Assembly (NCBI GenBank): GCA_027019405.1
Contig: JALUWO010000386.1
Coordinates: forward strand, 1 to 64,000
Length of the DNA: 64,000 nt
Direction: 5' to 3'
From: Candidatus Altimarinota bacterium
Lineage (GTDB): Bacteria > Patescibacteriota > Gracilibacteria > BD1-5 > UBA6164
Shown here: piece after piece, positions 7,746 through 51,512 of the stretch
Position numbering within the stretch: position 1 is the first letter of the stretch
How the letters are laid out: each line of letters opens with the position of its first letter
Notes under the pieces: generated by a model
Seen by the model: only the letters and a program-made list of their open reading frames with translations
Databases searched by the model: none
What the model was told of the DNA's origin: nothing
Made by a program: the position numbers and the translations under genes

Positions 7746-9653
7746 TTAGACTACCTCATTCCCTATTTTTTTATACAAATCATAATAATATTTTACAAAT
7801 TCTTTTAACTCTTTATTTTTAGATAAATTATTTCAATTTTTATCAGTTTCAACATAATTAAATAAAAATTCTCAAGCATCTTTTTTTTCTAAATAAATTA
7901 AAATTAATCTTTTATAATTTTTTATATAATTTTCTTTTAATTTTTCCCAATTTTTTTCAGTAAAATTTAATTTAATTTTAAATCATTTTACTTCTCTCCC
8001 TTGGGGAGAGATTGATAGAGGGATTATTTCAAATATTTCTGAATTAAACATTATATCAAGATGAATTAAACTTTCATTGTAATATGGTAAAACTTCAGTT
8101 ATTTCCATATATTTTAAAAGTCCTATACATCTAACAATATGTGTTATTATAATATTTTTATTAAATTCTTTTTTCTTATCTTCTCACATAAAATAAGAAA
8201 CTAATCATCAAGTTGTTGCTTTAAATTCTTCAATATTTTTAAAATTTCAAGTCTTTTTATTCATCTCTACTTCAGTATTTTTTGTAAGCCATAAAGTATG
8301 ACCAAACTCATGACCAATTGTTTCTACATCATAAATTTCAAAAAATAATTTATCTTGATTTAAAATTTTTAAATAACTATCTAATAAACTTTCTTCTAAA
8401 ACTTCTTTAGTTAATTTCATAAGAGGAGCTTTTTTCTTTCATTCAAGAACCATTTTAGGAAAAGCAAAAATCTTTTTTCAATACATTTCTGAAATTACTT
8501 CATCATTTGGAACAACTTGAGCTGAAAACATTCAATTTAATTCTGCTCAAAAATATAATACTGGTTCACTAATATATAATTGTACTCTATTAAAATTATC
8601 TTTTGAAAAATTATAAGATTCACTATATTTATTTCTTCAAATTTCATCATATAATTTTTCATACATATTTTCAATATCTTCCTTAACTTTAGATTTTAAA
8701 GTTTCAATATCAATAATTCTTAAATCCCATTCTGGAGCAACTCACTTTCTATATTTATCTTCATAAAATTCCAAAGGATGGCTAATTTGCAAAGCCCCTT
8801 TAATATCCATCCAAACTTCATCAACTTTTTGCCATTTATTTAATAATTTTTTAGTATTTTTCTCTAAAAAAGCTTCTTTTAATGATTCTAAATAATTAAT
8901 ATACATTTTAACTTCTCTCCCTTGGGGAGAGACTGAGAGAGGGACTAAATCTTCTATAAAATTCTGTAAAGCAACAATTATAGAATTAACTTCACTTCCA
9001 AAAGCTTCAAAATAACTCATAATTTTTCAAGCTTTCAATACACTATAACTTCTATCTGACTCTTGTCCTTTTTTATCAACTTCTAATAATTGTTTTTCTC
9101 TCAAATAATCCATTATTTTTTCTGAATCATAGTTAAATTTTTTATCTAAAATTTCATTTTGCAAAATAATATAATTTTCCCAAACAGGCATAAATTTATT
9201 AAAAGCTTTTCAAACTTTTGATACTCACTTAAATATTGTTAACATAAAGTCTTTCTCCCTTTGGGGGAAAGATTTAGATAGGGAGATTTTTTCTAATTCA
9301 TAAATAAATTTTTCTTGCAAATCAGAATAAACTCTAACTACATAATTGTATGCTTTATTTAAAACTTCCCTTTTATTTTGCAATTTATTTGGAATATTTT
9401 TTCAGATTTTTTTATTAAAATCTTCTATTTCTTTTTGTTTATTCTCTAAATATAATTCTAATGGTTCAACTCTTAATTCACTTATTCTAGAATAAGCAAT
9501 AAATCTATTTTCAGAAGTTTTTTTCATATTTAACTCATCCAAAAAACTATCTAAAATTGGATGTGATTTAGTTCATTTTTCACTTAACTCCCAAAGATTT
9601 TTTACTTCATAAAAAATTTTGTTTTGTAATTTAATTATTTCTTGTGTGTTCAT
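7746..9653 (-). CDS. Zinc metallopeptidase-like protein (HEFGH), family not recognised
   Basis: 635 residues, no signal peptide, so probably cytoplasmic. The motif ETIGHEFGHTLG (about residue 440) is an HExxH zinc site; a downstream Glu in the NIEEFKATTGG helix could be the third ligand. The N-terminal 400 residues are helical and charged. I could not assign it to M3, M13, M49 or another family with confidence. Three palindromic mini-repeats are embedded in frame (KISLSKSFPQRE, LVPLSVSPQGRE, IIPLSISPQGRE), so about 40 residues look like insertions. Confidence 0.65.
7989..8026 (-). repeat. Palindromic mini-repeat, copy A (in frame)
   Basis: Core CTCTCCCTTGGGGAGAG followed by ATTGATAGAGGGATTA. 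It lies inside the HExxH peptidase gene and is translated IIPLSISPQGRE. It is much richer in GC than its surroundings. Confidence 0.85.
8911..8947 (-). repeat. Palindromic mini-repeat, copy B (in frame)
   Basis: Core CTCTCCCTTGGGGAGAG, then ACTGAGAGAGGGACTA. Second insertion in the same peptidase gene, read LVPLSVSPQGRE. Same orientation and frame as copy A. Confidence 0.85.
9249..9287 (-). repeat. Palindromic mini-repeat, copy C (diverged, in frame)
   Basis: CTTTCTCCCTTTGGGGGAAAG core followed by a TAGGGAG end. Third insertion in the peptidase gene, read KISLSKSFPQRE. Same subtype as copy H. Confidence 0.75.
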
Positions 9654-9671
9654 AAATTAATTATTCAATTA

Positions 9672-10808
9672 TTATTTAAAATTTTTACCACAAATAAATC
9701 CACTACTCCAAGCCCATTGTAGATTAAAACCACCAGTTTTTCAAGTCACATCACAAACTTCTCAAATAAAATATAATCATGAGACTTTTTTAGCCATAAA
9801 ATTTTTATCAAGTTCATTTAAATCAATTCATCATCAAGTAGCTTTTGCTTCTTTCCAAGATCTCCAATCTTGTAATCAAAATTCTATTTTTTCTTCATTT
9901 TTAATTTCCTCTTCAAAAAATTTATTTATTTTTTTTGTAGAATTTTTGGGATTTATCTTTAATTCAATTTTTATATTTTCTAAAATATATTTAATTTTTT
10001 CTTGTTCAGCCTCTATTTTTAAACTACTTAAATATTCTCATAAAGCATTTCAAGCATTAAAAACTATTGGTCAACTAATTCAAAAATGTGTAAATAAAAG
10101 TGGTCAAAATTCTCTATAAATTTCTTTTTTATTATCTTTTAAAATCAATTCACAATTCAAACTATTTCAAGACAATTCTTTAAAGTCCTTTTTTGTAACA
10201 AGTCAAACTAAAGCTCTTGTAGGATTAATAATATTTAATCAAAATTGTCTAGCAAAATTATATCATTCTCAAATAGTTCCAACTTGAAAAAAACTTTTTC
10301 ATCAACTTGAAACTATTACATTTTTTGCTTGATATTCTTTTCAATCTTCACAAATAATATTAAAAATATTATTAGCCCCCTCCAAAGGGGGTTGGGAGGA
10401 TTTTTTTATTTTTTTAACATTACTATTACATCTTATTTCACAATTATTTTTTCTAGCCTTTCTTACTAATAAATCAAGTAATTCTTTAGAATCTCAACTT
10501 TTAAGAATTAATCTTCCTCTATCTTCTTCAACTATTTCAATTCAATTCTCAGCAAAAAAACTCTGAATATCCCACTGATTATATTTAGCAAAAACTCAAA
10601 GTAAAAATTTCTTATTCTGTGAAAAATAGTCTCTTTCTGGAACTATATCAATATTACTAACATTTGCTCTTTCTCAACCTGATAAAAGGACTTTTACTCA
10701 AGGATTTTTATTTTTTTCTAAAATCAATTTTTTATAGCTTTTAGGTAAATTACTTCAAACAAAAAGTCATGCTGCTCAAGCTCAAACTATTATTACATCA
10801 TATATCAT
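9672..10808 (-). CDS. BaiN/HI0933-family flavoprotein (NAD(P)/FAD-dependent oxidoreductase)
   Basis: 378 residues. The N-terminal dinucleotide fold has the GxGxxG motif VGAGAAG (most glycines TGA), then the family block GGGRANVSN. The C-terminus carries the family signature GEVCDVTGKTGGFNLQWAWSSG. These FAD proteins are widespread and their reaction is usually unknown. The start overlaps the upstream YigZ-like gene by 1 nt (TAATG), so the two are translationally coupled. A palindromic mini-repeat is embedded in the middle (SSQPPLEGAN), in a loop before IFNIICEDG. Confidence 0.9.
10374..10402 (-). repeat. Palindromic mini-repeat, copy D (short subtype, in frame)
   Basis: GCCCCCTCCAAAGGGGG core with a TTGGGAGGATT tail, inside the flavoprotein gene, read SSQPPLEGA. 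Shares the CCCCCTTT-type core with copy E. Confidence 0.75.
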
Positions 10809-11230
10809 TAAAATTCTTTTTTATGTTTTAAAATTTTTTTTGTAGCATTTATTACATTTTTAAATCTATCAGCATTTAAATGAATTCATCAAAAATATCT
10901 AGTAACAATAACAATAGTATTTACCATATTATCTCTTTGTAATTCTCTTAAAATACAATTTCAAGCTCAAGTTTCTCAATCATCATTTTTTCATTCTAAA
11001 ATACTTCAATTATCTAATTTCATTCTATATGCATAACTATTATGAGTAGCTTTTTTAAAATATTTATCAGATAATAAAAATCATATAAATTCTTTAATTT
11101 CTTCTTTTTTTTCTATATATCATCATACAACTGTATATTTACTTTTTCTATCAATAATTATATTTTGTAATACTTTTCTTTTATATGATAAAATATAATT
11201 TTTTTCTAAATCTAAACTTAATTTTTGCAT
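10808..11230 (-). CDS. YigZ/IMPACT-family (UPF0029) protein
   Basis: 140 residues covering the IMPACT N-terminal domain: ATHNSYAYR, DDGETGAGNCIL and VTRYFGGIHLNADRF are family signatures, with TGA at the conserved glycines. The C-terminal domain of E. coli YigZ (about 200 residues) is missing, so this is a minimal version. The family is linked to translation control and proline-peptide handling but its bacterial function is uncertain. Its stop overlaps the start of the flavoprotein gene. Confidence 0.85.
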
Positions 11231-11242
11231 ATAATAATTTTC

Positions 11243-12211
11243 TTAATTAAATTTTTCTTCCCACCATTTATCATCCATTATTCATTCTGATAATGTTAAA
11301 AATGCTTTTTTAACAAGCTGCACTTTTAAAAATAACTTTTTATCTGTTTTTATTCTTTCTTTCAAAGAATTATAATTTAATATTAATTCTTCTGCAACTG
11401 TAGCTTGATCCTCTGAAACATTTTCTTTTCAATAATTTCTTGCAAATCATACAACTCTTTTATCAATATCTTTATATAAATATTTTTTATTTTGTGTTTT
11501 TCTAATTTTAAACCATTCATCAAAATCATCATAATATTCCATTGCTTGATGATATAATTCATGATCAAAAGAATATATTAAATCTTCTCTAGATAAATAA
11601 ATATTATTATCTAAATGAGTTTTAAATCATCATAATACATCTTTATTTCAATATTGATCTTCTTTATAAAAATATTCTAAAATAAAAATTCATTCCAATT
11701 TTATATTTTTTATATAATTGATAGGATAAAAATCTAATAATTTTTTTAATTTTAAAATTATATTATTAGATATTATTTTTCATAATCATCTTCAAAAAAT
11801 TCATGCTGATATTGAATAAATATCATCAGTAATCAATTTAATTTCTATTCAATATTCTTTTTCTAAATATTCTTTTTCTTTAATCTTCTTCTCTAAATAA
11901 TCTTTAAAAAAATTAAAATCATTAATAATTTTAAAAAATTCTTCATCATCAATTTTTTTTCATAATAAATCATTATCAACAATTGCTTCAAACAATTTAA
12001 AAGGATTATATAATATAGATTTATCAAACTTAGAATATTTTAATAAATCATATTCCAACATATCTATAAAATCTATAATTTTATCTGAATTATTTCCATC
12101 TAATTCATATGATATTTTTTGCAAAAAATTAATAAATTTTTTTTTATCATCATTATTTACAAATTCTATGTAAGAATATTTACTTAATATTTCTTTTATT
12201 TTTTTATTCAT
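11243..12211 (-). CDS. Hypothetical protein with HExxH motif
   Basis: 322 residues, highly charged, mostly helical, no signal peptide. About residue 212, SFDHELYHQAMEYYDDF contains HELYH, a zinc-protease HExxH pattern. A downstream SEDQATVAEELILNY helix could supply a third ligand. No wider family recognised. It overlaps the upstream GIY-YIG gene by 8 nt. A role in defence or proteolysis is possible but unsupported. Confidence 0.6.
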
Positions 12212-12458
12212 TAATATTATTTATTAATAATATTTTCTCTTCTTTTTTCATTTTTTTAATCTCCATTTCTCTCTTTGTTGCTTCACTTCTATTGTATCAA
12301 TCTTCATAATATACAAGTTTAACTGGTTTTCTAGACAAAGTATATTTTGCTCATCATAATATTTTTCAATTATGTTGTCTAATTCTTCTATCTAAATCTG
12401 TTGTTATTCATGTATATAAAGTATCATCTCTGCATTTAACAATATAAACTTTATACAT
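12204..12458 (-). CDS. GIY-YIG domain protein (YhbQ/UPF0213-like)
   Basis: 84 residues, a single stand-alone GIY-YIG domain: VYIVKC, then LYTGITTDLDRRIRQHN, and WYNRSEATKREMEIKK with the catalytic Glu. The GIY half is changed to VYI, as is common in this group. Small proteins of this kind may be structure-specific nucleases; their biological role is unclear. Overlaps the next gene by 8 nt. Confidence 0.85.
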
Positions 12459-12460
12459 AA

Positions 12461-12979
12461 TTAATATTTTAATTTATCAATTATAGCTAAAGCAAATTCT
12501 TCTACAGCTTCTGGTCAACTTCAAGTAATGATATTTCAATCAACAACAACATTTTTCTTTTCATACAAAGATCCTGATTCTTTTGCTAAATAATCTAAAT
12601 TATTATCCCAATTTGCTCAAGTAAACTTTTTATTTTTCATTACTCACCAAGATAATAAATTCCTTGGTGCTGCACATATTGAAGCTACAATTTTTCATGC
12701 TCATAAATGATTCTTTGTCATATATTGTAAAGTTTCATTATCTCTATAATTTAAACTTCATAATCATCAAACAAAAACTATAGCATCAAATATATCATTT
12801 TTATAATCAACTATCATTCCAGATGATGATACTTCAAAACCAAATCTTCAATAACTTATAGTTTCAGTAGAAGTAGTAGTAACTTGACACACAAGTTTTT
12901 GTTCAAAAAAAGCTTTTGGAACAATATATTCTAAATCTCTAAATTCTTTTGGTGCTAAAACCATTAATATTTTTATCAT
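12461..12979 (-). CDS. DJ-1/PfpI-family protein
   Basis: 172 residues. The nucleophile elbow VASICAAPRNL carries the conserved Cys, and FVGGLGSLNYRDN resembles the family's GG strand-turn. Family members include glyoxalase/deglycase-type enzymes and chaperone-like stress proteins. The family Glu that polarises the Cys would be near the N-terminus and is not certain. First gene of a five-gene minus-strand run to 9672. Confidence 0.85.
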
Positions 12980-13213
12980 AATTTTATAATTATAAAACTA
13001 AAATCATCTAAACTTATTATAATAATTTATTAAAAAATTCTAACTTATTTTCTATATTTTAGATTTAAAATACAAACAAAAATATTTAGATTTTTAGGAT
13101 TTTTTTGCATAGTAAAAGTGCTTAAAATGGTGATTTGAAGAAGAAAAAGGAGAGGGAAGATTTTTAGGAGGGAGTTTCATGAGATTAATTAATTTTACTC
13201 AGTATAGTATATT
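12980..13213. other. Intergenic region with G-rich patch
   Basis: No gene supported. A 60-bp patch at about 13120-13185 is purine-rich and GC-richer than anything near it, with AGGAGG-like runs. It contains only a 21-codon ORF (13127-13192). Function unknown; possibly a decayed gene end. Confidence 0.4.
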
Positions 13214-14932
13214 TTAAATTTTTACTAGTCTAATTAAAGAAAAGTATAACAATATATGAAATAATCTATTTGAAATATCTTTACTATAAAAATGATTTAT
13301 TTCTATTCAATGGGCTAAATTATTTCTTAAATTCCATCCCTCAACCATAGTTAATATTAATCTAAAATATAATTCAAAGTCAGCTCATCTTGATTTAAAT
13401 ATATTTTTTATTATTCAACTTTTAATAAGATAATCTAATGATTTATACTCTATTTTACCATTTTTATAATTAAGTATTGTTATCCCCATTATTTCATTTA
13501 ATTTTCTAAATGACTTCTCTATAAAAGGAATAGCCATAAAATTAAACTCTAAATAATTTCATTTATAATAATTATCAAATATTTTTTTTATAAATTTTTC
13601 ATCATCTTCTTCATACAAACTATTTTGCATAAAGTCCTTTACTAAATCATTTATTTTATATATTTTTATAAACTTTTTCAATACCTCTTCAATAAAAATA
13701 GAACTTATATGTAAATCTTGAGTAATTTGTTGATATAGATTTCAATCATAATCTTCTTCTATTCATCAAATAATATGTACAGGAAAACCATTTTTATCTA
13801 ATATTTTTTTACTTATCATATATTGAAATGGGTATTTTTTCACTAAATCATCTAATAACTCTTTACTTTGTTTTTTATTTATAATAAATCCAATACAAAT
13901 TCTTTGAATAATACTATCATTATCTTTAAAAAAATAATCTACATAATCCTTCATTTCCTTATCTGTAATTTTAAAAGATGTTTCTATATTTTTATAATTT
14001 ATAGAAGTTTCTTTATTTTTCTTTTGATAATCATTTATAATAATATTTTTTTCATATTTTATAGACTGATATTTTTGATATATAGTAAATATATTTATTA
14101 GTTCCTGAAAATAATTGGAAATTAATAATCAATCTTTACTATCATTTATAATTTTATAACTTACTTCTTTTATTCTTGATAATACTCTTAATAAATTATC
14201 TACATCCTTATTATAATATTTAGCTAATTTTTCTCAACAAAATTTTATTAAATAAATATCATTTAACTTATTTAATTTACTTTCTAAATCATCTATTATA
14301 ATTTTTTCAAGTTTTTCATCTAATTCTATTTTTTTATTATTAATTAAATAATCAAAACTAAATCACCATAATCAAGGCTTATCATCAATAGTAATACTTT
14401 TTTCATAATTAATAATTATTTGAAATATATTCCTATATTCATCTACTTTATTTATAGAAATAATTACACTTAATAATCTTTTTAAAATATCTTTTCAATC
14501 TAAATCAGTAAATACTTTTTCTTTTATAGCTTCTATTCAAGTTTTAATTAAGCTTATAATATTTTTATAATCAACTTTATTTCAAGTAATGTTTTCTTCT
14601 AAATCATAAATTAAATCTAAATATCTAAATTTTAAAAATAAATTATCAGTTTCTTTTGCTCTTTTTTTCCAATATTTTATTGTTTCACTAGTTATATAAC
14701 CTTTTCAAGGGCTTTCAGTAAAAGTTCAATCATCATTTCTTAATATAACATAAGGTCAATAGTTAGTTCACCAATTTGATAATTTATCATAACTTACATG
14801 TAATTGAAAAGCTAGATATTCATTCAATATAATCTTGTTTTTTAATTTATCATCAAGTTTATTCTTTATAATTCAAGCTAAATCATAATATTGATTTCAA
14901 TTATATCTTTCTATTTTTTCAATTATATTCAT
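13214..14932 (-). CDS. DUF4209-like protein
   Basis: 572 residues, cytoplasmic, helical and Lys/Ile-rich. The C-terminus has GNLRNNLAHGIEIN, close to the RNxxxH motif of DUF4209-type and HEPN-like proteins. In HEPN proteins the R and H are RNase catalytic residues. The rest lacks recognisable motifs. It sits next to the AbiE toxin-antitoxin pair, which makes a defence role worth considering (inference). Confidence 0.55.
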
Positions 14933-15056
14933 AATATTTTTTAAAATTTTTATTTAAATAATACTCCCTATCTAATAAAAATCAATATATTTAATCTAGT
15001 CTTTTTTAACTAAAATAATCCCTACAGTATCTTCAAATCACCCTATAATTTTTCTT

Positions 15057-15725
15057 CTATTCAAAATCTACCTTAAATTTCAAAATTCAAATTAATTCTT
15101 TTAACAATTTTGTTTTCACAAATTGCTTTTGTTTTTCTCAAGATAAAACTTCTCATAATCAGTCTAAAATTTTATAATTTTCTCATAAACTTTCTAATTT
15201 TTTAATTATTTCTTTAAAAACTTCTTTTCTAGTTTTTCAAGTTCTTTCAAAAATTAAATCATTATTTAAACTAAAATTATTTTTAAAGAAAAAATAAACA
15301 TCATAAATATCTCTATTTGCATTTCTTTCTAATAAAGCAACTAGTTTATTTGAAAAAATTGTAGATTTATCTTGAGTTAAAATATCAGTTCAATAAAAAT
15401 TTTTTATCTCATAATTATTATTTTTCCAAATATTTCTGCTTATATCAATTTTTATATTCACATCATTATCTCAATAAGATAATTTTAGATTATATTTTCA
15501 CTTTTTAACTTGACCATATTTTTTTAAAATTTTAATAATTTCTAAATCAATATTTTCAAAATCTTTAACTAAATCAAAATCAAGATCTGTAGAAAATCTA
15601 TCAAGCTGATAAAGAAAATAACAAGCTGTCCCCCCTTTAAAAGCAAGATATTTCCAAAGTTCACTATTAAATATATCTTGCAATATATCATACATTATCT
15701 TTCTATGTAAATCTTTATTTAGCAT
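15057..15725 (-). CDS. abiEii: AbiEii toxin, nucleotidyltransferase family
   Basis: 222 residues. The nucleotidyltransferase motif is clear: FKGGTACYFLY, then RFSTDLDFDL (about residues 29-51). Later motifs include KIDISRN and NKLVALLERNANRDIYD, matching AbiEii/MNT toxins. Known relatives are cytotoxic NTases, some of which transfer nucleotides to tRNA acceptor ends; the antitoxin represses the operon. Its start lies within the end of abiEi (11-nt overlap), the normal type IV toxin-antitoxin layout. Confidence 0.9.
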
Positions 15726-18872: not shown

Positions 18873-19574
18873 CTATTTCATTAACTCATTATAATTCACC
18901 CACAAAATTGCATCTAAATGTAAAAGAGGAATATTTAATTTTTCACTTAAATTTATATAAAATTCTTTTATTTCTTTTTTATTTATTATTTCTTTATTTT
19001 TATATTTTTTATATAAATTTTCTAATCTACTATCAATAGGAATCATCAAATTTTTTGGAAAATATTCTAAATAAGAAAATACATTTCTTGCTCAATAAGA
19101 AAATATTTTTACAGCAAAAACTATTGTTTTAGCCTCTATTTTTTGATTCATAACTTTAGATAAATCTAAAGCTAATTTATCCATATTTTTATAATAATAT
19201 TCAAAACTTCTTATATCTCCTTCAAAGGGGGCTAGGGGAGCTAATTTTTTAACTCTTTTTAATTTAGTTTCTATAAATCTCTTATTATTTTTACTTGCAG
19301 GCAAAAATTCTTCAAAAAAAGTATATATTTCAGAAAAATTAGCAAAATTTTTATTTTCTAAAAAACTAGAAAACTCCTCCCAATAATCTTCTCATTTTCA
19401 GCTTAATTGGTAACTTATTAAAGCATTAGTTATTATTAAAAATAAGTAATTTTCATTACTCATTTTTTTACTTTTATATAGTTTTTTTAAAGCTAAAAAT
19501 TGTCTATCTTTTTGTTCAAAATTTATAGCATCTTTTATAGTATATTTTTTTAATTTATTATATAATTTATCCAT
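18873..19574 (-). CDS. AGOG-type DNA N-glycosylase/lyase
   Basis: 233 residues. The C-terminal half has the AGOG helix-hairpin-helix region: KIEAKTIVFAVKIFSYGARN (Lys of KT is the lyase candidate) and MIPIDSRLENLY (Asp). AGOG enzymes remove 8-oxoguanine from DNA and were first known from archaea. An in-frame palindromic mini-repeat adds LAPLAPFEGD (about residues 110-120) between the two halves. Start overlaps the rsmE end by 8 nt. Family assigned from motifs by eye. Confidence 0.7.
19214..19246 (-). repeat. Palindromic mini-repeat, copy E (short subtype, in frame)
   Basis: CTCCTTCAAAGGGGG core then CTAGGGGAGCTAA, inside the AGOG-type glycosylase gene, read LAPLAPFEGD. Confidence 0.75.
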
Positions 19575-22475: not shown

Positions 22476-22510
22476 AAAAAAATATAGCAAAATAATTTGC
22501 TATATTTTTA
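22476..22510 (-). terminator. Terminator after tex
   Basis: AATATAGCAAA/TTTGCTATATT hairpin with T-run on the minus strand, overlapping the tex stop. Confidence 0.75.
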
Positions 22511-24670
22511 ATTAACCTCCTTCATACTCAATTGAATCTTCCCTGTTTTTTCATCTATTCAAGTAACTTTTACTTTTACAGTTTGCCCAACTTCAACTTC
22601 TTCTTTTGGGTCACTCACAAATTTATCTGCTATTTGAGAAACATGAACAAGTCAATCATTTTTAAGTCAGATATCTACAAAAGCACCAAAAGCAACTACA
22701 TTTCTAACCACTCACTCTACTATATCTCACTCAACAATTTTCACACTTCATTTTTTTATTGCTTTTTTATGAGTAGAATTCACTCTTTTTTCCTTTCAAA
22801 TATTCTCTAAACTTTCCAAAATAAAATTTATAGTATTTATTCATGCTTCTGGATAAATCTCCAAAATTTCTTTTTTGTTTTTTTCAAAAAATTGTTCTAC
22901 TTCTCTCCCATTGGGAGAGATTGAGTGAGGGATTAAATATTCAGCCAATTCATATTGGTCTGGATGAATATCTGTATTGTCAAATTTTTCAGGACTTTCT
23001 GGAACTCTCAAAAATCAAATTGCTTGTTCATAAATCTTATCTGATAATTGTTTTTTTAAATCTTCTCTAGATTTATATGGTCTATTTTTATAAATCTTTT
23101 TAGCAGATCTTTTATCAATACCTGAAATATGATTTAAAACATATATTGAAGCAGTATTCACATTTATTCAAACCTCATTAGCACAATCTTCAACTACATA
23201 TCATAATTTTTCTTCCAATTTTTTTTCTGGCATATCATGTTGATACATTCCAACTCAAATACTTCAAACTGGTACTTTTACAAGTTCTGAAAGTGGATCA
23301 ATAAATCTTCTACCTATTGAAACTGTCCCTCTATCTAAAGAATCTAAATCTGGAAATTCTTCTTGAGCAATCTTTGAAGCAGAATAAACTGAAGCTCAAC
23401 TTTCATTTACAATAAAAATTTCTGTTTCAGTAATATCATATAAAATTTCTAAAGTTTCATTTACTCAAGTACCATTTCAAATAACTATTACTCAAGGTTT
23501 TTCTTTTTCTATAATATTTTTCAATTTAGAAATAGCTTCAAGTTTTTTATGTAAATATATTTTATCAAATGAAATTGGATCACCAAATTCATTTAAAATA
23601 GCCATTTTACAACCTGCATTGAATCATGGATCAATAGCCAAAATTTTCTTTCAGTATTCTGGTTTTGTCATAAGTAATTGAGCCAAATTTTGTTTAAATG
23701 TTTCAATTGCATCATCTTCTCAAACTTCACTTAAAATACCTCTAAGTTCATTTTCAACTGATTTAAAAAGTGTATCATAACCTTCTTTAAAAGCTTCTTC
23801 TAATTCAGAAATAAAAGGTAATTTTACTCACAAAATTCTTGCATAATGCATTTTCAAACCTTCAAAGGTTTTATCTGTCTTTTCTATTTTTACATTTAAA
23901 ATTCAAATATTTTCTCATCTATTCAAAGCTAAAATTTGATATGGTTTTAACCAATCTATTCTATGATTAAAATCAGAATAAATATCAAATTTAGAGATTT
24001 GACCTTTATCTTTGTCATTAAGTTTTTCAAGAACTTTATCTCATTTTACTTTTGAAACAATAGAACCATATTTTTGTAAAGTTTCCAGTAAATCTGCTCT
24101 CAAATCAGAATTTGCTGCAATTTCAGCAGCTATAATATATTTAGATCATTCCAAAATTTCCTCCTCACTATATTTATCTAATAAATCATTTGGAATTTCA
24201 AATTCTCTATTTTTTTTAATTAAATCAGCAACAACTTGAAATCATTTTTCAATTGCTATCATTGCTTTTGTTTTTTTCTTACTCTTATATGGCCTATAAA
24301 TTTCTTCAACTTCTTTTAAAGTTTTTGCTTTCAAAATATTATCCATCAGTTCTGGAGTCATTTTTCCAAGTTTTTCAATTCAATTTACTGCTGTTTGCTT
24401 TGATTTATGAAGTTTTTCTGCTTTATTTTTTAAATCAACAATATTTCTAATATTATCTTCATCTAGATTTCAAGTTAAATCTTTTTTATATCTAGCAATA
24501 AAAGGAACAGTTGCTCACTCTACTATCAAATCCAAAACTACTTTTACTTGAAAATTTTTAAATCATAATTCCTTAGCTACAATTTCAATGTAATTTGGTT
24601 CTTCTAAAACTGTTCAAGAAAATTCAGCATCTTCTTGTTCCAATATCTCTTCATTTATATTTTTTGGCAT
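22508..24670 (-). CDS. tex: Tex-family RNA-binding transcription accessory protein
   Basis: 720 residues, normal length. Order: N-terminal HTH-like region ([13 protein letters not shown]), YqgF-like domain (ILAIDPGFNAGCK, VIVIGNGTG), HhH region ([19 protein letters not shown]), and a C-terminal S1 domain ([33 protein letters not shown]). It binds nucleic acid and affects transcription. A mini-repeat inserts [13 protein letters not shown] between the HhH/TTR part and the S1 domain, where a linker should tolerate it. Confidence 0.95.
22898..22935 (-). repeat. Palindromic mini-repeat, copy F (in frame)
   Basis: CTCTCCCATTGGGAGAG core then ATTGAGTGAGGGATTA, inside tex, read [12 protein letters not shown]. 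Same frame and orientation as copies A, B and G. Confidence 0.85.
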
Positions 24671-43109: not shown

Positions 43110-43146
43110 AAAAAAGCATTAATTTATAAAAATTAATGCTTTTTTA
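43110..43146 (-). terminator. Terminator after the PDTG surface-protein gene
   Basis: AAAAAAGCATTAATTT/AAATTAATGCTTTTTT hairpin. Confidence 0.75.
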
Positions 43147-43159
43147 AAATATAATATTT

Positions 43160-43975
43160 TTAAGCTTTTTTTCTTCTAAAAAATATTAAACTAGACATTA
43201 TAAATGTAAGTAAGACAAGTATATTTGTTGATGTTCCTGTATCTGGTGTTTCAGCTGCATTTAAAGCTACTTTTTTTAAAACATTTTCTTTTGTAAGATT
43301 TGTTATTTTTTGATCTTGTAATGAGTCATTTGTAGAAAAATCATATATTCAATTTAAAAATGTAGTCTTAACTCATTCTTTTGTAGATACTTGAAATAAC
43401 ATCAATATATAATTTGAACTATCTTCTAAATTATCTTTTAATAATATATTTATTTGTTTATCATTATCTGAATCTATTAATATATCAGAAATTTTTAATT
43501 GTCTAAGTAATTTTACTTCCAAATCATCACTTGGAGTTATATCTTTTTTAAAAGTTATAACTATTTCTTTAGGTGATTTTATAAAAATACTTGCTACATT
43601 TTCATCTGTTGCACTATTTTCTATATCTATTCAAGAAATATCATTTCATAAAGAAAAATCCATATTTCCATCAATTCAATATACAGATAAAAAACTATAT
43701 GATGTATTTGCTTTTAATTCTTGCTTCAAAGTTACATCCAATTTTTTCTTATTTGTAGAATCAATAGTTACTTTATCTAAATTTAAATCTTTAAATATTT
43801 TTGCTTCACTATTCAATTTTAAATCTGATGAACTAAATTCTTTATCAGTTAAAATCTTAATTATATTTGTTTTTGTTGAATCTAAGCTTACTATTGTTGC
43901 CTCTTTCCCATCAGCTGCAAAAGCAGACAAACTTAAAGTCAATAACATTAAAATTGAAATTATTTTAGTTTTCAT
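43160..43975 (-). CDS. Secreted protein with C-terminal PDTG-hydrophobic-RRKK anchor
   Basis: 271 residues. Signal peptide (KTKIISILMLLTLSLSAFA). The mature part has a repeated pattern of beta-like segments (VTIDSTNKKKLDVTLKQ, ISDILIDSDNDKQINILLK) resembling bacterial Ig-like or copper-resistance CopC-type SbsA_Ig folds. The C-terminus ETPDTGTSTN, then a hydrophobic helix and RRKKA, is the layout of sortase or similar sorting signals. I start at 43975, not 44005, since the shorter form gives a normal signal peptide. No sortase gene in this window. Confidence 0.75.
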
Positions 43976-44120
43976 ATTTTTATATTTATTTTTATAAATT
44001 AACATACATTAATATTTAATCATATAAAAAGTTTTATGTCAAAAATATATATGATAATATACAACTTTTTTAGTAAAAATAGCTTTACAAAATATATTTT
44101 TATTTTTTAATAAATAAAAA

Positions 44121-44148
44121 TTGACTCAAATAATTAAAAATATATAAT
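44121..44148 (+). promoter_or_regulatory. Consensus promoter of the glycine-zipper gene
   Basis: TTGACT (44121-44126), 16-bp spacer, TATAAT (44143-44148). A strong AAAGGAGG ribosome site at 44181-44188 follows, the best in the window. Confidence 0.75.
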
Positions 44149-44193
44149 ATATACATCTTTTCATAACAAAAAATTAAAAAAAAGGAGGATATT

Positions 44194-44697
44194 ATGAAAA
44201 AGATTATTCTTGTATTTATAGGTCTTGTTTTTATAACAAGTAATATATTTGCTGAAACAATAAGAGTTAGAGTAACAGAAGCTACTCCAATATACAAAAG
44301 AAGTATAGTTCAGATTCCACATACTACTTATCAAGAAGAACAAGTACAAGTTCCTTATCAATGTAGACAAAACAATGTTGATACAAATAGCATAGGAGTT
44401 GATACAATCATTGGAACTATTGCAGGTGTTGCAATTGGTAATCAAATTGGTAGAGGTAATGGAAGAACTGTTGCAAAAATTGTAGGTGGAATAACTGGTG
44501 CAACTATTGCAAATAATATGAGACAAGACTCTACAAAGACTTGTTATAGAATAGAGTTTAGAAAAATTCCTCAGACAACTTATAGTGATGAAGTTGAAGA
44601 AAGACTTGTTGGCTATAAAATCTGTGGTTATCTTGGAGGTAGAAAAATATGTAAAAGAACAAGTACCAAACAAAGATATATTTATCTAAACTACTAA
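44194..44697 (+). CDS. Glycine-zipper 2TM outer-envelope protein, probably acquired
   Basis: 167 residues. Signal peptide (KKIILVFIGLVFITSNIFA). A glycine-zipper core (GVDTIIGTIAGVAIGNQIGRG and KIVGGITGATIANN). It is flanked by two similar arms with Cys (PHTTYQEEQVQVPYQC; PQTTYSDEVEERLVGYKICGY). All 15 or so glycines are GGT or GGA, with no TGA, and it carries a strong Shine-Dalgarno site. Proteins of this look are common in AT-rich Proteobacteria and Campylobacterota envelopes. Likely horizontal acquisition (inference). Confidence 0.85.
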   Translation: MKKIILVFIGLVFITSNIFAETIRVRVTEATPIYKRSIVQIPHTTYQEEQVQVPYQCRQNNVDTNSIGVDTIIGTIAGVAIGNQIGRGNGRTVAKIVGGITGATIANNMRQDSTKTCYRIEFRKIPQTTYSDEVEERLVGYKICGYLGGRKICKRTSTKQRYIYLNY

Positions 44698-44723
44698 AAC
44701 CAGAGACTTAGCTCTGGTTTTTA
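44696..44723. terminator. Bidirectional terminator, glycine-zipper gene / rmuC
   Basis: AAACCAGAG/CTCTGGTTT hairpin with T-run; overlaps the stop of the glycine-zipper gene. Confidence 0.85.
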
Positions 44724-44727
44724 TTTT

Positions 44728-45780
44728 TTATTCTGGTTTATCAAGATAGACAACATTTTGATTTAAGTTATTTTCTTCTTGTGTTATTTTTACTATATCT
44801 TTATCTATTTTTTGAAATTCTTTATATGAATTATTATAATGATTTACTGTTGTTCATAAAGAATTACCAAGTTTATTAAAAGTCTCTTCATAAGTTTCTA
44901 GATGTCTAGCAAGTTTTCAAACATATTTTGCTATATCTTTTGCTTTTTGTTCTATTTCCAAAGCTTTTAATCATTGTAAAACAGTCTGCAGGTAAGCATA
45001 AAAACTTGTAGGACTTACTATTATAACTTTTCTTTCTTTAAAAGCATATTCCAAAAGATTTGATGCTCAAGACTTATTTGTTATCAAATCATAATATATA
45101 GTCTCACTAGGAATAAACATAAAAGCAAAATCTAAAGTTTTTTGATCTGGTTTTATATATTTACTTGTTTCATCTATTCTCTTTTTTAAATCATTTTTAA
45201 ATAATTTCTCATAATGTTCTCTTGTTTCTTTATTTGTTGCTTCAAGTATTTTATTATAATTTTCAAGTGAAAATTTTGAATCAATAGGAATAATGTTTTC
45301 TCAGACAAAAACTACTCCATCAACTATATCTCATCACTTAAAGCTATATTGTAAAGCATAATTTTCTGGAGATAATACATTCTTTAAAACACTCTCTAGG
45401 AAATATTCTCATAAAATTCATCTTTGTTTTGGATTTTGTAATATATTTTCAAGTCATTTAAGTTGATTTCATATATCTTTTATCTGACTATTTGTTTGTT
45501 CTAGTGATGATAATTTTTGTGTAATTTCTTCTATTTTTTTTGTTGCTTCACTTGATATTTTCTGATTTGTTTCCAATGTCTTTCAAATAGTTTCATTTGA
45601 TTTTATTAACCTAAAATCAAGTGTCTTATTTAAATTTAATAATTGATCTTGTAATAATTTTATTGAATTATTATCTTGTTTCTGTCAATTTTTTGATATC
45701 AAGAAAAAAATAATAACTACAAGTAAAAAAATTATTATAACAAGTGATATATTAAACATTGAAATAAAAGAAGAATTCAT
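44728..45780 (-). CDS. rmuC: RmuC-family DNA recombination protein
   Basis: 350 residues. N-terminal membrane helix (SLVIIIFLLVVIIFFLI), a coiled coil to about residue 105, then the RmuC nuclease-like domain: NPKQRGILGEYFLESVLKNVL, IPIDSKFSLENY, FMFIPSETIYYDLI, VIIVSPTSFYAYL. RmuC limits inversions at short repeats; relevant because this genome has palindromic mini-repeats. Confidence 0.93.
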
Positions 45781-45887
45781 AAACAACTATTTTAATAATA
45801 AATAAATAATAAGTAATATAATAATAAAAAAATTTTTCCCTTTTTGTGTATTATTATCTTACTTATTATTCTACAAAATATTCTTTT

Positions 45888-46415
45888 TTAAAAAGAAGTT
45901 TCTTGTTTTGTTGTAATAGCAAATAAATCATAATTTTTTTCTTCAAATTTTTCATCCAATTTCTTAGATAAAGATGAAATAAAATCCTCTCAAGTCAATA
46001 AAAGTGGTGAAATATTAGGTAAAATTACAGCCAATTTTTCTCTATCTTTTTTTATAGCAAGTACTCATTTTTTTAAAGGATCAAGTTTTAATATTTCATT
46101 TGTATTCAAAACATCTCTTGAAATAATTTCATCAACTCTAACTTGAATATCTGATAAATCTGATAAAACTAAATTTCAAAATCTAGAATCATTCATAGCT
46201 TCAATAGTATTTTTTATCAATTCTTGTAAAGCTGTTACTTCAAGCTCTTTTATATTTCATGCTGATCCATGAACTATTCATCATTTATATATTGTAACAA
46301 ATAAATTTGCTCTTCTAGAAACAAGAGATTTATCTAAAACAATTAACTCATCAATATTTGGAACCCTATTATTTTTAAGATAAAACTCTATTACTTGCTT
46401 TGCAATTTTTATCAT
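45888..46415 (-). CDS. AMMECR1-domain protein
   Basis: 175 residues. The domain blocks are recognisable but diverged: LFVTIYKGGIVHGSAGNI (normally G-C-I-G), LQELIKNTIEAMNDSRFGNLVLSDL, and IQVRVDEI. The function of AMMECR1 proteins is unknown; in other bacteria they are often near radical SAM and MEMO genes. None of those is adjacent here, although a radical SAM gene is 3 kb away. Confidence 0.75.
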
Positions 46416-46432
46416 ATTTTATTTATAAAAAA

Positions 46433-47182
46433 TTAAACCATATTTTTTTCTTCTTCTTCTCTTTGTTTTTCTTTCTCTTCAAGTTCAATAGTTCTAAAAA
46501 TATCTCAAAGAGAATCCAGTGTTGTATATTTATAATAATAAAAATATAATAACTCAAATAACTGTTTAAAAAATGTCATTAAGAAATTGATAATTGGTAA
46601 TAAAATAACCAATGAAATCAATTTTGCATATCAACTTGGAAAAAAAGTAAATATAGATAATGCTATAATTGATGAAGAAAATAATCATATAAAACTACCA
46701 TAAATTCAAGTTAAAACATAAGTATAACTATTCAATATTTCTGATAACAAACTGATTCAAAAAGATAATATCAAGACATGAGCTAAAAATATATAAATAA
46801 TAAATTCATAATTTTTAAGTCATTCAAAAATATAAACTGGTGTAATAAAAAAATATACCAATATTGTAAAAAAAGCTAATTGACCATAAATAATAATATT
46901 TTTTTTATATTTATCAGGATCAGTTAAACTTAAAATAAAATAAGTTAAAAACATTGTAGCAAAAGTTCAAATAAGAGCAATTACAGATAAAAATATTGGA
47001 AATATAGTATTTGTATTACTTCACATCCTCATAGAATCAAATCAAGCAGGTATGTCAATAAGACCTGAAGTAGCAAAAACTAAAAATAAAATTATGATAC
47101 TTCATATAATTCATGCTCAAAATGATCATAAAGAATTTATAATAACATCTCTAAATGAAATCTTGTTTGGTCAAAAACTCAT
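46433..47182 (-). CDS. Multi-pass membrane protein, unknown
   Basis: 249 residues with about six membrane helices. N-terminal KISFRDVIINSLG, then helices at about 20-40, 60-80, 95-115, 125-145, 150-175 and 180-205. The C-terminal tail is charged (LEEKEKQREEEEKN). No conserved catalytic motifs seen. Its start is 3 bp from the lspA stop, so it is probably co-transcribed with lspA. Confidence 0.6.
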
Positions 47183-47184
47183 AA

Positions 47185-47610
47185 TTACTTTTTATTTTTA
47201 AATAATATATACATATAAATAATAGCTCAAATAGTTATAAAACTATCTGCTAAATTAAAAACTGAAAAATATTTTACACTTATAAAATCTATAACTCTAG
47301 AATCAAATATTCTCTCAATTCAATTTCATATTGCTCAAGCTAATATTAATCAAAAACTTAAATCAAACAATTTTTTCTTTTTTTCTTTTTTTCTTTCTAG
47401 AAAATAATAATAAAAAATTGCTATAATCAAAATAATAGTTAAATATTTTAATCCTGGAATTTGAGTAGAAAAAGCAATTCAAGTATTTTCTACATATTTT
47501 AAACTTAAAAAATCTCACAAGATATTTATTTTTTTTTGTAAATAAATATTTGCTAGATTTTTTGTAAATAAATCTAAAATAACTCAAAGAATAATTACTG
47601 AATAAAACAT
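47185..47610 (-). CDS. lspA: Lipoprotein signal peptidase (signal peptidase II)
   Basis: 141 residues, four membrane helices. The catalytic pair is in the right places: LAGAIGNGIERIFDSRVIDFI (first Asp) and FNLADSFITIGA (second Asp). It cleaves lipoprotein signal peptides, implying that the cell makes lipoproteins. The middle loop KKKEKKKK is lysine-rich. Confidence 0.95.
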
Positions 47611-47668
47611 TTGATTTTTAAATAAAAATTATTATAACTAGCTAACCAAAAATAAAAAGGAGCATAAA

Positions 47669-47806
47669 ATGCAAAAAATAAAAACACAAGAAGAAGTACA
47701 ATTAACTTCTAAAAACTCAAAACTGGAAGAAAAATATACAACAATAATTTTTACAATTTTTATTGTAGTATTACTTATTGATATATGTGTAAAATCTTTC
47801 CTATAA
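47669..47806 (+). CDS. Small single-pass membrane protein, 45 residues
   Basis: AAAAAGGAG ribosome site at 7 bp from the ATG, one of only three such sites noticed. An acidic/basic N-terminal half (KTQEEVQLTSKNSKLEEKY) and a C-terminal helix (TIIFTIFIVVLLIDICVKSFL). No glycine at all. A strong terminator follows within its stop. No family recognised; length and terminator support a real gene. Confidence 0.6.
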   Translation: MQKIKTQEEVQLTSKNSKLEEKYTTIIFTIFIVVLLIDICVKSFL

Positions 47807-47834
47807 AATAGAGGGCCATCCCCCTATTTTTTTA
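47805..47834. terminator. Bidirectional terminator, 45-residue gene / mtaB
   Basis: AAATAGAGGG/CCCCCTATTT hairpin, GC-rich stem with T-run; contains both stops. Confidence 0.8.
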
Positions 47835-49143
47835 ATTTTCAAATAATTATCTCATTTTTTTTAATATCTCAAGAAAGAACTTCTATATTTTCATTACTTG
47901 CTTCAATATAATTCTGAGTCCAACCTTTCCAATTTCATTTTTCATCTACCTGTTCAACTAAAATTTCAAAAATATCTCAAATATTTTCTAAAATAAAATT
48001 ATTTCTGATTTTATCTGATAACTCTAAAATTCTATTCATTCTATCTTTTTTTACTTTATCTGAGGTTTGCTCTTTATAAAATCAAGCTGGAACATTTTCT
48101 CAAAGTTTATGTGCTGAAAAAGGAAAAGCATGTAGCTTTGTAATTTTGCAAGTTTCTATTAAATCAAGAGTTTGTTTAAAATCCTCTTCAGTTTCTCCTG
48201 GAAAACCAACTATTATATCTGCTCAAATACTTATTTTTATATTATCTTTTCTTTTTATACTTCTTAATTTTAATAAAATATCTTTCATAAAATCTCAAGT
48301 ATAATGCCTTCTCATTTCTTTTAAAACATTATTACTTCAAGATTGAACTGAAAAATGAAAATGTGGATAAATTCTAGAATTTTCAAAAATTTTTAATAAT
48401 TTTTCATCTACAAATTCAGGTCAAAGTGAAGAAATCCTAAGTCTTTTTATAGAAGTATTTTCCAAAATATATTCTAATAGTTCAAATAATTTTGATTTAA
48501 CTTCTGAAATAGAATTTACTGGAGATATTTCTGGATTAGTAGAATCAAGTCACCAAGCAGCTAGATTTATTCAGGTCAAAACTACTTCCTTTCCTCAAAC
48601 TTTTACAAAATCCTGAATTTCTTCAACTATATCTTCTTTAGCTCTAAAATAATGTCTTCATCTTTTTTGAACTGTAAGACAAAAACTACAAAAACTATCA
48701 CAACCTCATTGAATTAATACAAATTTTTTTGTATAAATTTGATTTTGAGTTAACTTTTTTAATTTATCAAAGTTTATTTGTTTTTTTCAGTCCAATTTTT
48801 TTTCTTCTGGATCTTCTCCTAAAATTTCTATTCTTCACTTAAATTCTTTAAGTTCTGGATACAACTCAAAAAAATCTTGCTGAGCCTCTCATTCCTTAAA
48901 TGCTCCACATCAGCTTATATAAACTTTCCAATTTCAGGTACTGGTACCCAAAGTTTTGGGTACCGGTACCTCTTTTACTTCCTTAAATATATCTTTTATA
49001 AACTTAATCCATTTTCTTTTAGCTTGATCTGTAACTACACAACTAGCAACAAAAATCCCCTGTTTATCTTTTAAATAATCAGAGTTTAACCATTTATCTG
49101 TATAATATTTATTTACTTTACATCAAAAAATTTTATATTGCAT
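47824..49143 (-). CDS. mtaB: MtaB-like tRNA methylthiotransferase (radical SAM)
   Basis: 439 residues. N-terminal UPF0004 domain with Cys ([33 protein letters not shown]), then the radical SAM triad CDSFCSFC. It adds the methylthio group to t6A37 or i6A37-type tRNA. The NKY start and TDQAKRK fit MtaB better than MiaB. A 34-bp palindrome is inserted in frame in the first domain ([11 protein letters not shown], about residues 57-68), a site where relatives have nothing. Confidence 0.9.
48937..48970. repeat. 34-bp GGTACC palindrome inside mtaB (in frame)
   Basis: GGTACTGGTACCCAAA, then GTTTTGGGTACCGGTACC: a nearly perfect inverted repeat with three GGTACC-type units, GC-rich in an AT-rich gene. 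It adds [11 protein letters not shown] to the protein. Unrelated in sequence to the CTCTCCC mini-repeats. Confidence 0.8.
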
Positions 49144-49170
49144 TATTTATTTTTTTATTTAATCTAAATT

Positions 49171-50067
49171 CTAATAAATTGGTTTAAATTCATTCCAACC
49201 ATAAATTTCAGGATATTCTTTCCAAGGACCTTCACAAACTTTATATTTACTACATTTTTTACATTCTTCTCTTTTTGCTTTTCATTCATTCCATCTATAA
49301 TCAGCATAAGAGTCAATAGTCCACTCTGCATCAACTACTGTAGTTTCAGGCATAATATTTTCAGCAATAGCCCATTCATAACCTTGCATAAGACAATAAG
49401 GAATTGCTTCAGTAAAAGCAGGAATTCAAGCTTTTTTAGCTATATCAAGTCATTTATGAACATAATGAATTACATCTGATTTTTTAGGTACAACTATATC
49501 TTTATTTTTATCTGCACTTCCCAAAATATGTACAAAAGCAAATTGAAATTGATTAACTCAAAGTTTTACTAATAATTCTGCTAATTGAGGAATCTCCTTA
49601 TAATTAGCTTTTGTAATAACAGAATTAATTACAACTATTTGATTTAATTTTCTTAAATTTATAAGTCCTTTTACTACTCTATCCCAGGCTCATTTTTGAT
49701 GAACTTGATTATCATGAGTTTCCTTATAAAATCAATGAATTGAAGGACTAAATTCAGTAACTCAAGCCTTTATAAGTTTTAAAACATAATCTATTTTATC
49801 AAAATTTGTACCATTTGATTGAATTTGAATTTGCTTATAACCTATATCTTTTGCATAAGCCACTGCTTCTACTAAATCTGGATGAACAGTAGGTTCTCAA
49901 CCTGTAAAAACTGCATATTTACATCAATTATCATATTCCCTTTTTATTATTCATTTTATTTCTTCTATAGTTCTTGGTTTATATTTATATCTTTTATCTC
50001 ATTGTACACAAAAAGTACAATGATTATTACATGCAAAACCTACTTTTATATCTGCTCTTTTATACAT
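49171..50067 (-). CDS. Radical SAM protein with C-terminal Cys cluster
   Basis: 298 residues. N-terminal ADIKVGFACNNHCTFCVQG has the radical SAM CxxxCxxC. VFTGGEPTVHPDLVEAV is the GGEP motif, and IQIQSNGTNF follows. C-terminal REECKKCKYSKVCEGPWKEYPEIYG is a partial SPASM/twitch-like Cys cluster. Substrate unknown; this build is seen in peptide- and cofactor-modifying enzymes. No precursor peptide gene was spotted next to it. Confidence 0.88.
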
Positions 50068-50081
50068 ATTTCTATTATAAA

Positions 50082-51512
50082 TTAATTTCTAATCAACTTA
50101 CTTGGAATTAAACTTTTTAGTTTTCAATTCTTTAATTTTGCTATTCCCATTTCCAAATCATCATAAATTATTTGATAATATCAATCAAATAATTTAGTTT
50201 CTATTTCATATCAACTTAATAATCTATCTAAATCATCTTTATTTACTTCTATAGTATTTTTATCAAATTTAGTAAAAGTTCCAGCATAAAAATTTGGAAT
50301 AAATTCTCAGTCTTTTAGTTGTCCAATATTTATTCAAATTTTGTATAAAAATAGTTTATCCCAAATATCATTTAAAGATTTTTTTATTAACTGAATATCT
50401 CAATTATATTCATATAATCCATATTCTCAAATATCAAAATCAAAAGTATTTTTAAAAAAATCACTAATTTTTTTCCTATCTGTAGAATTTAATTTCTCAA
50501 TATTTTGCCTTACAAACTTTATTTCTTCTTTTTTATTCCATCTACTACTTTTTTCCTCTCTCCCTTGTGGAGAGATTGAGAGAGGGATTAATGATTTTAC
50601 TTTTCTTATTTTAGCCACAAAAAATCAACCTGTAAAATTTAAGTGTGGCCAATTTCTTTTAAATGAACTTACATTAACTCCTTTCTCCCTTGGGGGGAAA
50701 GGTTGGGATAGGGGGATAATTTCTATATAATCTCCATATTTTTTAAAAATCTTTTCTATAACTCCTTCATTTTCAAATTTATTCAAGGTACAAGTAGAAT
50801 AAACTATTTCTCAACCAGCCTTACAAGTAGTAATAGCTGCTTCAAGTAATTTATACTGTAACTTTGCTACATTTTTTATATTTTTTAAATTCCAATATTT
50901 TAAAGCTTCATCAGTTTTAAATGCAGTTCATTCTCAGCTACAAGGTGCATCAAGAAGAATTTTATCAAAAATTTCAGGAATATTTTTAAAAAATCTTCCA
51001 TCATAGTTAGTTGCAACAGTTTTTAAACTACTCATCCTATCTAGATTTGAAAAAAATCATTTAAGTCTAGACTTATCAAGTTCATTTGCTACAATTAAAC
51101 TATTTGGATAATATTCTTGTAATTGAGTTGTTTTCCCTCCAGGAGAAGCACTCATATCCAAAATAATATATTCATTATAATCAATTTTATCTCCACTCAT
51201 ATAAAATGGACTAGAACTAGCAGCAACTTCTTGCACATAAAAATATCCTGCAATATGTTCAGGAGTATTTCATAATGCTACCTCTTTAGCATCTTCTCTA
51301 TCTATATAAAAAATATTTTTTCAAAGATTTGTAGAAGTAAGTATCCAATTATTATTTTTAGCTCTTTTTTTAAAATCTTCTATACTTATTTTATTTGTAT
51401 TTATTCTTATTGATTTTTTAAGAGGAGTATTAAGTGATTTCTCAAACTTTAATACTTCTTCATCATCAAATCAAAATTCTTTTTTTATGTAATCTATAAA
51501 ATCTTTTTTCAC
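50082..51512 (-). CDS. RsmF/NOL1-type rRNA m5C methyltransferase
   Basis: 476 residues, GTG start. SAM-binding ILDMSASPGGKTTQLQ, DRMSSLKTVATNYDGR, LLDAPCSGEGTA (catalytic Cys of PCS) and VYSTCTLNKFENEGVI (second Cys, TCT). A C-terminal RsmF-type extension (PUA-like) continues to the end. Two palindromic mini-repeats are embedded about 32 residues apart after the catalytic domain (IIPLSQPFPPRE; LIPLSISPQGRE), in the linker to the C-terminal part. Confidence 0.92.
50553..50590 (-). repeat. Palindromic mini-repeat, copy G (in frame)
   Basis: CTCTCCCTTGTGGAGAG core then ATTGAGAGAGGGATTA, in the rRNA methyltransferase gene, read LIPLSISPQGRE. Confidence 0.85.
50679..50719 (-). repeat. Palindromic mini-repeat, copy H (in frame)
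   Basis: CCTTTCTCCCTTGGGGGG core with AAAGG closing the stem and a GATAGGGGGAT end, in the same methyltransferase gene, read IIPLSQPFPPRE. Resembles copy C. Confidence 0.8.

Follow-up and report, generated by a model that had tools for sequence, protein, structure and literature searches.

Hairpin-plus-tail repeats lying in frame in protein genes of a Candidatus Gracilibacteria genome

Palindromes within genes and the eight repeats of the window

Palindromic elements in frame within protein genes are known from Rickettsia, where they measure about 150 bp (PMC10969869). Repetitive extragenic palindromic (REP) sequences, which are palindromes of 20-40 nt, also occur inside genes in several species, as single units or dimers that add amino acids to the product; most copies are intergenic, and the Rickettsia palindromic elements (RPEs) RPE-4 and RPE-6 were counted as CGTC REPs (Di Nocera et al. 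2013, PMC3733652). The same paper describes REPs that flank the gene of a REP-associated tyrosine transposase (RAYT), as well as CGTC REPs that have no dedicated transposase. An inverted REP doublet is called a REPIN (PMC3116915). RAYTs and REPs coevolve, the repeats flanking or overlapping the RAYT gene, and repeats internal to it go unmentioned in the available part of that account (PMC2817692). Coding palindromes in the form of inverted repeats in protein genes are also found in the mitochondria of Nematomorpha (PMC6649704), but there both arms encode conserved host protein and the palindromes are not dispersed insertions. Here we describe eight GC-rich hairpin-plus-tail repeats in a window of 64,000 nt, namely bases 1-64000 of contig C386 (149,893 bp) of genome G000 (2.70 Mb, 504 contigs), from Candidatus Gracilibacteria, which is the name borne by the homologues of its CiaB-like protein and by its relatives in the collection.

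The most likely explanation, to which we assign a probability of about 0.7, is that all eight belong to one REP/REPIN-like repeat, likely mobile, whose copies persist within genes only if they are in frame. Read in the coding sense, every copy starts with a C-rich tail of about 14 nt (for example TCCCTCTCTCAA, TCCCCCTATCCCAA or CCTCACCCCAA), followed by a hairpin (16-23 nt in the window) whose 5' arm is pyrimidine and whose 3' arm is purine, and by a short post sequence, for which AGTAGAACAA and its variants are common. The block is 33-43 nt long and adds about a dozen amino acids. Hairpins were found at positions 7993, 8914, 9250, 10376, 22902, 50557 and 50680, and a GC island at 19212-19246. 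When up to two mismatches were allowed, CTCTCCCNNNNGGAGAG gave 8 strand-matches (4 places) in the window against 0.04 expected. A search of Rfam gave no match. Covariation of the hairpin arms was not used as evidence, since our hairpin-plus-tail detector demands pairing and the covariation is biased by it.

All features of the window given here and below are on the minus strand. Three copies are located in the gene of a CiaB-like peptidase: a subtype A repeat at 7990..8025 (peptide IPLSISPQGRE), a second one at 8911..8946 (VPLSVSPQGRE), and a repeat of the CTTTCTCCC subtype at 9247..9286 (peptide SLSKSFPQREKD). A flavoprotein gene contains a CCCCCT subtype repeat at 10373..10405 (KSSQPPLEGA), which corresponds to a 5-residue gap in the alignment with HI0933, the closest protein compared. 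The tex gene has a subtype A repeat at 22899..22934 with an 11-residue peptide followed by (VEQ). Two more copies are found in an NSUN gene, one of subtype A at 50554..50589 (IPLSISPQGRE), the orientation of which was set by hand because its hairpin is nearly symmetric, and one of the CTTTCTCCC subtype at 50677..50716 (peptide PLSQPFPPREKG). The weakest copy, an eroded CCCCCT-type repeat at 19212..19246 in an AGOG gene (APLAPFEGD), coincides with the GC island and was missed by the detector; it is degenerate and adds a net of only two residues relative to G039, G040 and G041, three relatives from one genus. Apart from the bad erosion of this copy, the eight sequences are as the sequence-only reading had described them: all are in frame within a gene, have the same orientation relative to coding, and are free of stop codons.

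Occupancy, orientation and frame of the copies

The sites of the repeats are filled in some relatives and empty in others. The 120 CiaB-like homologues listed were compared in two alignments, one of 35 proteins and one of all 120 (first 45 rows displayed); for NSUN and Tex, 45 of 120 alignment rows were displayed for each. CiaB forms of 612-613 residues lack all three window inserts, including that encoded at 7990..8025, and other homologues have different peptides at the same sites. At CiaB site 1, P0004 has a near-clean insertion of 13 residues, whereas the window form is longer by a net of seven and does not have the native residues there. The relatives of the NSUN protein show filled and empty sites in the same manner, and in four of them (P0136, P0144, P0146 and P0147, peptides only) R+F pairs are present in frame. 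In Tex, where the insert adds a net of six residues, most of the homologues displayed lack the window peptide or have another one, and most rows are shorter at this point; P0243 has PHSISPIGREVEQ there, P0284 has SPLAPLLRGEG, and P0251 and P0253 have eroded-looking copies. Comparison of the DNA of G039, G040 and G041 revealed filled and empty states at further sites, both genic and intergenic. An insertion that spreads and decays would leave what is seen here: sites without a copy or with another subtype, pairs in inverted arrangement, and copies that have eroded. The genome of G039 also has an extra 21 nt in the loop of one hairpin and that of G040 extra sequence in another, i.e. insertions nested in insertions.

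The peptides do not appear to be ancestral in the CiaB gene, for which this was checked. A SPQGRE-type peptide was found in none of the 80 genome_contigs loci that encode a CiaB relative (mostly Campylobacterota by title), and the matches in two of these loci, L119 and L190, were to the loose motif KGGE only. In a predicted structure of the CiaB-like protein (mean predicted local distance difference test score, pLDDT, of 85.7), which is the one model used for the placement of inserts, each of the inserts (residues 123-136, 236-248 and 544-555) bridges an interruption between helices or strands. The repeat at 9247..9286 would fall between helices 94-122 and 131-172, that at 8911..8946 between helices 219-241 and 245-263, and that at 7990..8025 between strands 541-548 and 554-562. 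A model of Tex was dropped (mean pLDDT 60.7, predicted template modelling score 0.37).

We then looked at a larger sample. In 40 kb of G030 and eight contigs of G000, of which C31 was included in part, the detector found 42 matches, as opposed to one in the reversed sequence. A 738-kb sample of G000 contains 32 dispersed copies, of which 27 are genic and five lie outside genes. This sample is 92.3% coding according to a simple custom gene caller, the calls of which are approximate (one genic call is a 73-residue open reading frame, ORF), and five of 32 against a non-coding share of 7.7% gives a binomial p of 0.09. When stretches of G030, G037, G039, G040 and G041 are added (1.02 Mb in total), 47 of 68 copies are genic and 21 are not, and the copy density is higher outside genes than inside (p 8e-8; without G030, 15/58 outside, p 6e-5). 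The repeat is thus not confined to genes; in G000 genes hold most copies, at near the genes' share of the sequence. The sequence-only reading had found the lack of intergenic copies in the window striking. It is not, because at the coding density of the contig (0.914) all eight copies would be genic with a probability of about 0.49. The six outside-gene copies in G030 resemble a separate family led by GTAGCC or similar. On contig C35 of this genome (L102 and L103; e.g. 1373, 14823 and 37431) we observed hairpins led by GTAGCC or GCAGCC, most of them intergenic, which as a family are closer to the classical GTAG REPs.

The orientation of the copies is biased but not uniform. In the G000 sample, the tail-to-hairpin direction follows the gene in 22 of the 27 genic copies (14.8 expected, p 0.0035), and in all samples it does so in 35 of 47 (25.3 expected, p 0.003), where the expectation treats all open frames as equal, the copies are taken as independent, and the copy at 50557 was oriented by hand. 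With five of 27 genic copies reversed in G000, the single orientation that had been noted in the window does not hold in general. An early idea, suggested by an apparent uniformity of orientation within contigs, was that insertion into single-stranded DNA of the lagging strand sets the orientation during replication. It was rejected, as three copies in minority-strand genes (C57:26196, C144:24967 and C144:25410) follow the gene and not the strand of the contig. Coding-sense copies share one frame within a subtype (5/5 for subtype A, 6/6 for subtype B and 3/3 for the CTATCTAAA subtype, the grouping being our own). Three of the 12 reverse-oriented genic copies contain a TGA that is read as glycine. 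In this orientation the mean number of open frames per genic copy rises from 1.79 to 2.26 of three once TGA is not a stop, and in the other one from 2.40 to 2.55. Most copies in the G000 sample are single, and the three close pairs are all inverted, with tails outward and gaps of 23-26 nt.

Close relatives differ widely in copy number. The D pattern CCTCACCCYARCCCTCTCC was found in 31 of the 48 family genomes (all reversed controls together gave one match), and within one genus the number of its matches ranges from 52 (G040) through 10 (G039), two (G041) and one (G037) to none (G038). Three D-type matches on one strand of G030:C51, at 1806, 1956 and 2106, are exactly 150 bp apart and are possibly a tandem array. 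A 51-nt D copy matched 159 of 72,556 plasmid records, down to an E-value of 1e-6, whereas type A matched none of them. A scan of viral contigs gave seven loci. The repeat of proteobacterial plasmids, CCCTCACCC(Y)AACCCTCTCCC, is like the Gracilibacteria D subtype in its tail and hairpin, and in an Azospirillum plasmid the match extends into the post sequence (GGGAACAAGGACA, close to GGGAGCAAGGACA of G000). However, its hosts belong to another phylum, and of the four places that we read, three lie outside annotated genes (the record of one of these has almost no annotation) and the fourth coincides with the 3' end of paaH.

How the repeats may have spread

The architecture and dispersal described above are those of REPs: a hairpin with a tail, in high copy number, as singles and pairs in genes to which they add amino acids. 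The end tags are different. CGTC or GACG was found at none of the 68 copies, and GTAG 5' of the hairpin at six (four in G030, two in G040, none in G000); in the coding orientation, GTAG is on the 3' side of 11. The genic share is different as well, as most REPs in PMC3733652 are intergenic. REPINs are resembled in the inverted close pairs and in the R+F peptide pairs, but here the copies are mostly single and genic, and no cognate RAYT was found for them.

We suggest that the repeat was copied by transposition, probably in the form of single-stranded hairpins and by a HUH (Y1-type) transposase. A copy that landed in a gene would survive only if it was in frame and free of stops and if the site could accommodate it, as a predicted turn might. 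Copies that were out of frame or could not be tolerated would be removed, so that the pattern of positions and frames would reflect purifying selection and not the choice of target. The sequence-only reading, which had proposed a REP-like mobile repeat or miniature inverted-repeat transposable element tolerated as a loop, is overall partly supported: empty sites, differing subtypes at one site, bursts of copies and pairs agree with it, as do the predicted breaks at the CiaB inserts.

A number of observations weigh against such a history. Several inserts, such as those of Tex and CiaB site 1, replace native residues and are not clean additions. No target-site duplication was evident in the filled and empty pairs, the flanks of which have diverged, although this was not tested formally. 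Strain-level polymorphism of insertion was not seen between the window and P0001, a protein on another contig record, which has the same three CiaB inserts and differs from the window form by TGA-as-W sites and one residue. (The listed identities, 97% for P0001, are too low because the database reads TGA as W.) Some sites could be a single old insertion the core of which has changed in subtype. As to the enzyme, the detector for the main family gave no match at 12 Y1 loci and matched at only two of 43 RAYT-like loci (L113 and L118), in neither case touching the gene. Furthermore, G040 and G030 are rich in copies (52 and 35 D matches, respectively), yet they are without a RAYT-like gene. With no association between the two, a RAYT was rejected as the driver of the main family.

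The main rival explanation, which we consider possible but rather improbable, is that the repeats did not transpose but were passed on between copies by gene conversion or ectopic recombination, with a site taking its core from another copy. The constant frame within each subtype could be understood in this way. So could CiaB site 544-555, which is filled in seven of the listed relatives with cores such as IPLSISPQGREV, PHPNPLLKGEG and PHSVSPKGKEV next to a similar right flank (F/Y then KIKL). However, P0020 and P0023 have the same right flank and are unfilled, hence the flank is no proof of one shared insertion. Conversion also needs a prior copy, whereas empty sites with recognizable flanks exist, and the bursts of copies differ within one genus.

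It is unlikely that the repeats serve as peptide modules that selection retains for the loop they encode. Such a role would account for each main subtype keeping to a single frame where other frames are open too, and for the segments in Tex relatives that are eroded yet kept. On the other hand, the host proteins are unrelated, relatives have empty forms of the same proteins, copies are found outside genes, and unrelated palindrome families occupy the same position (see below).

We regard it as more unlikely still that these are true RPEs that reached Gracilibacteria. The likeness to Rickettsia drawn in the sequence-only reading holds for behavior, in that both are palindromes in frame in unrelated protein genes and are also found outside genes, but it does not by itself make the repeats members of that group. 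The blocks of 33-43 nt are shorter than the elements of about 150 bp in PMC10969869; this length is in itself no bar, as RPE-4 and RPE-6, the CGTC REPs of PMC3733652, are REP-sized. However, the CGTC/GACG tag is absent within and beside all 68 copies, the host is of another lineage and uses code 25, and the nearest match found outside is the repeat of proteobacterial plasmids. Finally, chance low complexity or an assembly artefact, for which the size of the bin might speak (2.70 Mb in 504 contigs against 0.6-2.1 Mb in the other 47 family genomes), can practically be dismissed given the detector counts of 42 and one, the same inserts on a second contig record, and related inserts in other genomes.

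GGTACC palindromes, RAYT-like genes and the host genes

A second, unrelated element is present in frame in a MiaB-like gene of the window at 48936..48971. It is a double palindrome of the GGTACC type (one GGTACCGGTACC and one GGTACTGGTACC) that encodes 11 residues. Among 29 aligned orthologues, window included, most are shorter at this position and a few have other insertions. In G025 a hairpin-tail repeat occupies the same position, as confirmed in the DNA, which together with the window copy places two unrelated palindrome families at one position of a MiaB-like protein. In G040 there is a similar peptide, but the hairpin match in the locus of this gene is elsewhere and none was detected at the position itself.

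Nine exact copies of GGTACCGGTACC were found in G000, four of them at a single RAYT-like Y1 gene on contig C86, which is thus flanked by its cognate palindromes. The translation of this gene matches Y1_Tnp (PF01797) with 32.7 bits (cut-off 23) and contains PNHFHF, which we take to be the HUH motif. Judged by its sequence, the product is a candidate enzyme for the GGTACC family. A REP-type transposase, which the sequence-only reading had proposed to look for, therefore exists in the genome; its association is with the GGTACC palindromes and not with the eight repeats. A RAYT gene flanked by its repeat, as in classical REP systems, was found for the former family and not for the latter.

Of the 14 RAYT-like matches in the family, we examined the 12 longer ones. 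Seven of these loci have a palindrome type specific to the locus in frame inside the part that is common to other RAYTs. Further copies are present in possible 5' extensions of the ORF at L106, L109 and L111; L105 and L114 have palindromes at the gene ends only, and L112, L113 and L118 have none. At L105-L111 and L117, locus-specific palindromes were observed near the start and in several cases also at the stop codon. RAYT-like proteins match in 145 of 379 genomes of the phylum. Among 29 further loci that were fetched, 24 were readable and four had an internal palindrome, repeated in two of them (L254 and L264); the palindrome rate in the rest of these loci was 0.18 per kb.

The pairing of palindromes with RAYT genes is strong, though not exclusive. 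All four copies of AACCCCGGGGTT in G004 are at the RAYT gene and all four in G045 within about 0.6 kb of it, while G020 has 33 dispersed copies, often in pairs separated by 18-23 nt, G001 has 14 but no RAYT-like match, and G009 has one. Similarly, GAGACCGGTCTC is at the RAYT gene or within about 0.25 kb of it in all four copies of G042, at a RAYT gene in five of eight copies of G020, and at the RAYT locus in the one copy of G032; G009 has three copies, one of which lies at a distance of about 0.65 kb from a RAYT gene, while there are two in G001 and one each in G023, G027 and G035. The three copies of GGTACCGGTACC in G032 are all at the RAYT locus, and G016, G020 and G037 have one each. The palindrome of L107, AAGTCCGGACTT, is known from its locus. 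As in described RAYT systems (REPtrons), RAYT-like Y1 genes are flanked by palindromes, here of the GGTACC type and three others, but in Gracilibacteria palindromes are also found in frame within the gene itself. Those RAYT genes that contain palindromes offer testable enzyme-substrate pairs for four palindrome types.

A broader and more tentative proposal, which we think less likely to be right than wrong, is that protein turns and not intergenic gaps are the main habitat of palindromes in Gracilibacteria. Each unit would comprise about 12-13 codons and be free of stops in most frames, helped by the reading of TGA as glycine. Unrelated families would occupy the same protein position, and RAYT-type transposases would have their cognate palindrome in frame at fixed places within the gene, so that the enzyme gene is partly built of its own substrate. 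Palindromes within genes are not new as such, given the RPEs and the intragenic REPs of earlier work. What appears new is the host lineage, the genic share of the copies, the unrelated families at one protein position, and the palindromes internal to RAYT genes. Among the titles and abstract openings listed from the open-licence PubMed Central literature, we found no account of palindromes inside Gracilibacteria genes, and a 2024 paper on groundwater Gracilibacteria (PMC11452946) contains no word starting with palindrom or transposase.

The window has a GC content of 22% and uses code 25 (TGA=Gly). Under table 11 it has just eight ORFs of at least 100 residues, whereas coding is nearly continuous under table 25 (scripted cover 0.15 vs 0.93). 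The gene with three inserts (7746..9653), a code-25 ORF, encodes an HExxH peptidase of PF25448, named invasion protein CiaB in relatives. The other host genes were assigned by matches to the PDB: the HI0933-like flavoprotein (9672..10808; 2gqf_A, E 2.8e-50), the AGOG-type N-glycosylase/DNA lyase (18873..19574; 7ou3_A, E 9.5e-39), tex (22508..24670; 3bzc_A, E 1.6e-105), the MiaB-like radical S-adenosylmethionine methylthiotransferase (47824..49143; 7mjz_A, E 4.4e-28), and the NOL1/NOP2/sun (NSUN) RNA m5C methyltransferase (50082..51512; 2frx_A, E 1.3e-58). The G000 bin, which exceeds the other family genomes in size, may be composite; its contig C83 has a GC content of 32%, whereas the remaining contigs sampled have 19-23%. 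Many homologues of the Gracilibacteria CiaB-like peptidase are found in Campylobacterota (L119-L198), and the gene may have been transferred between the two groups.

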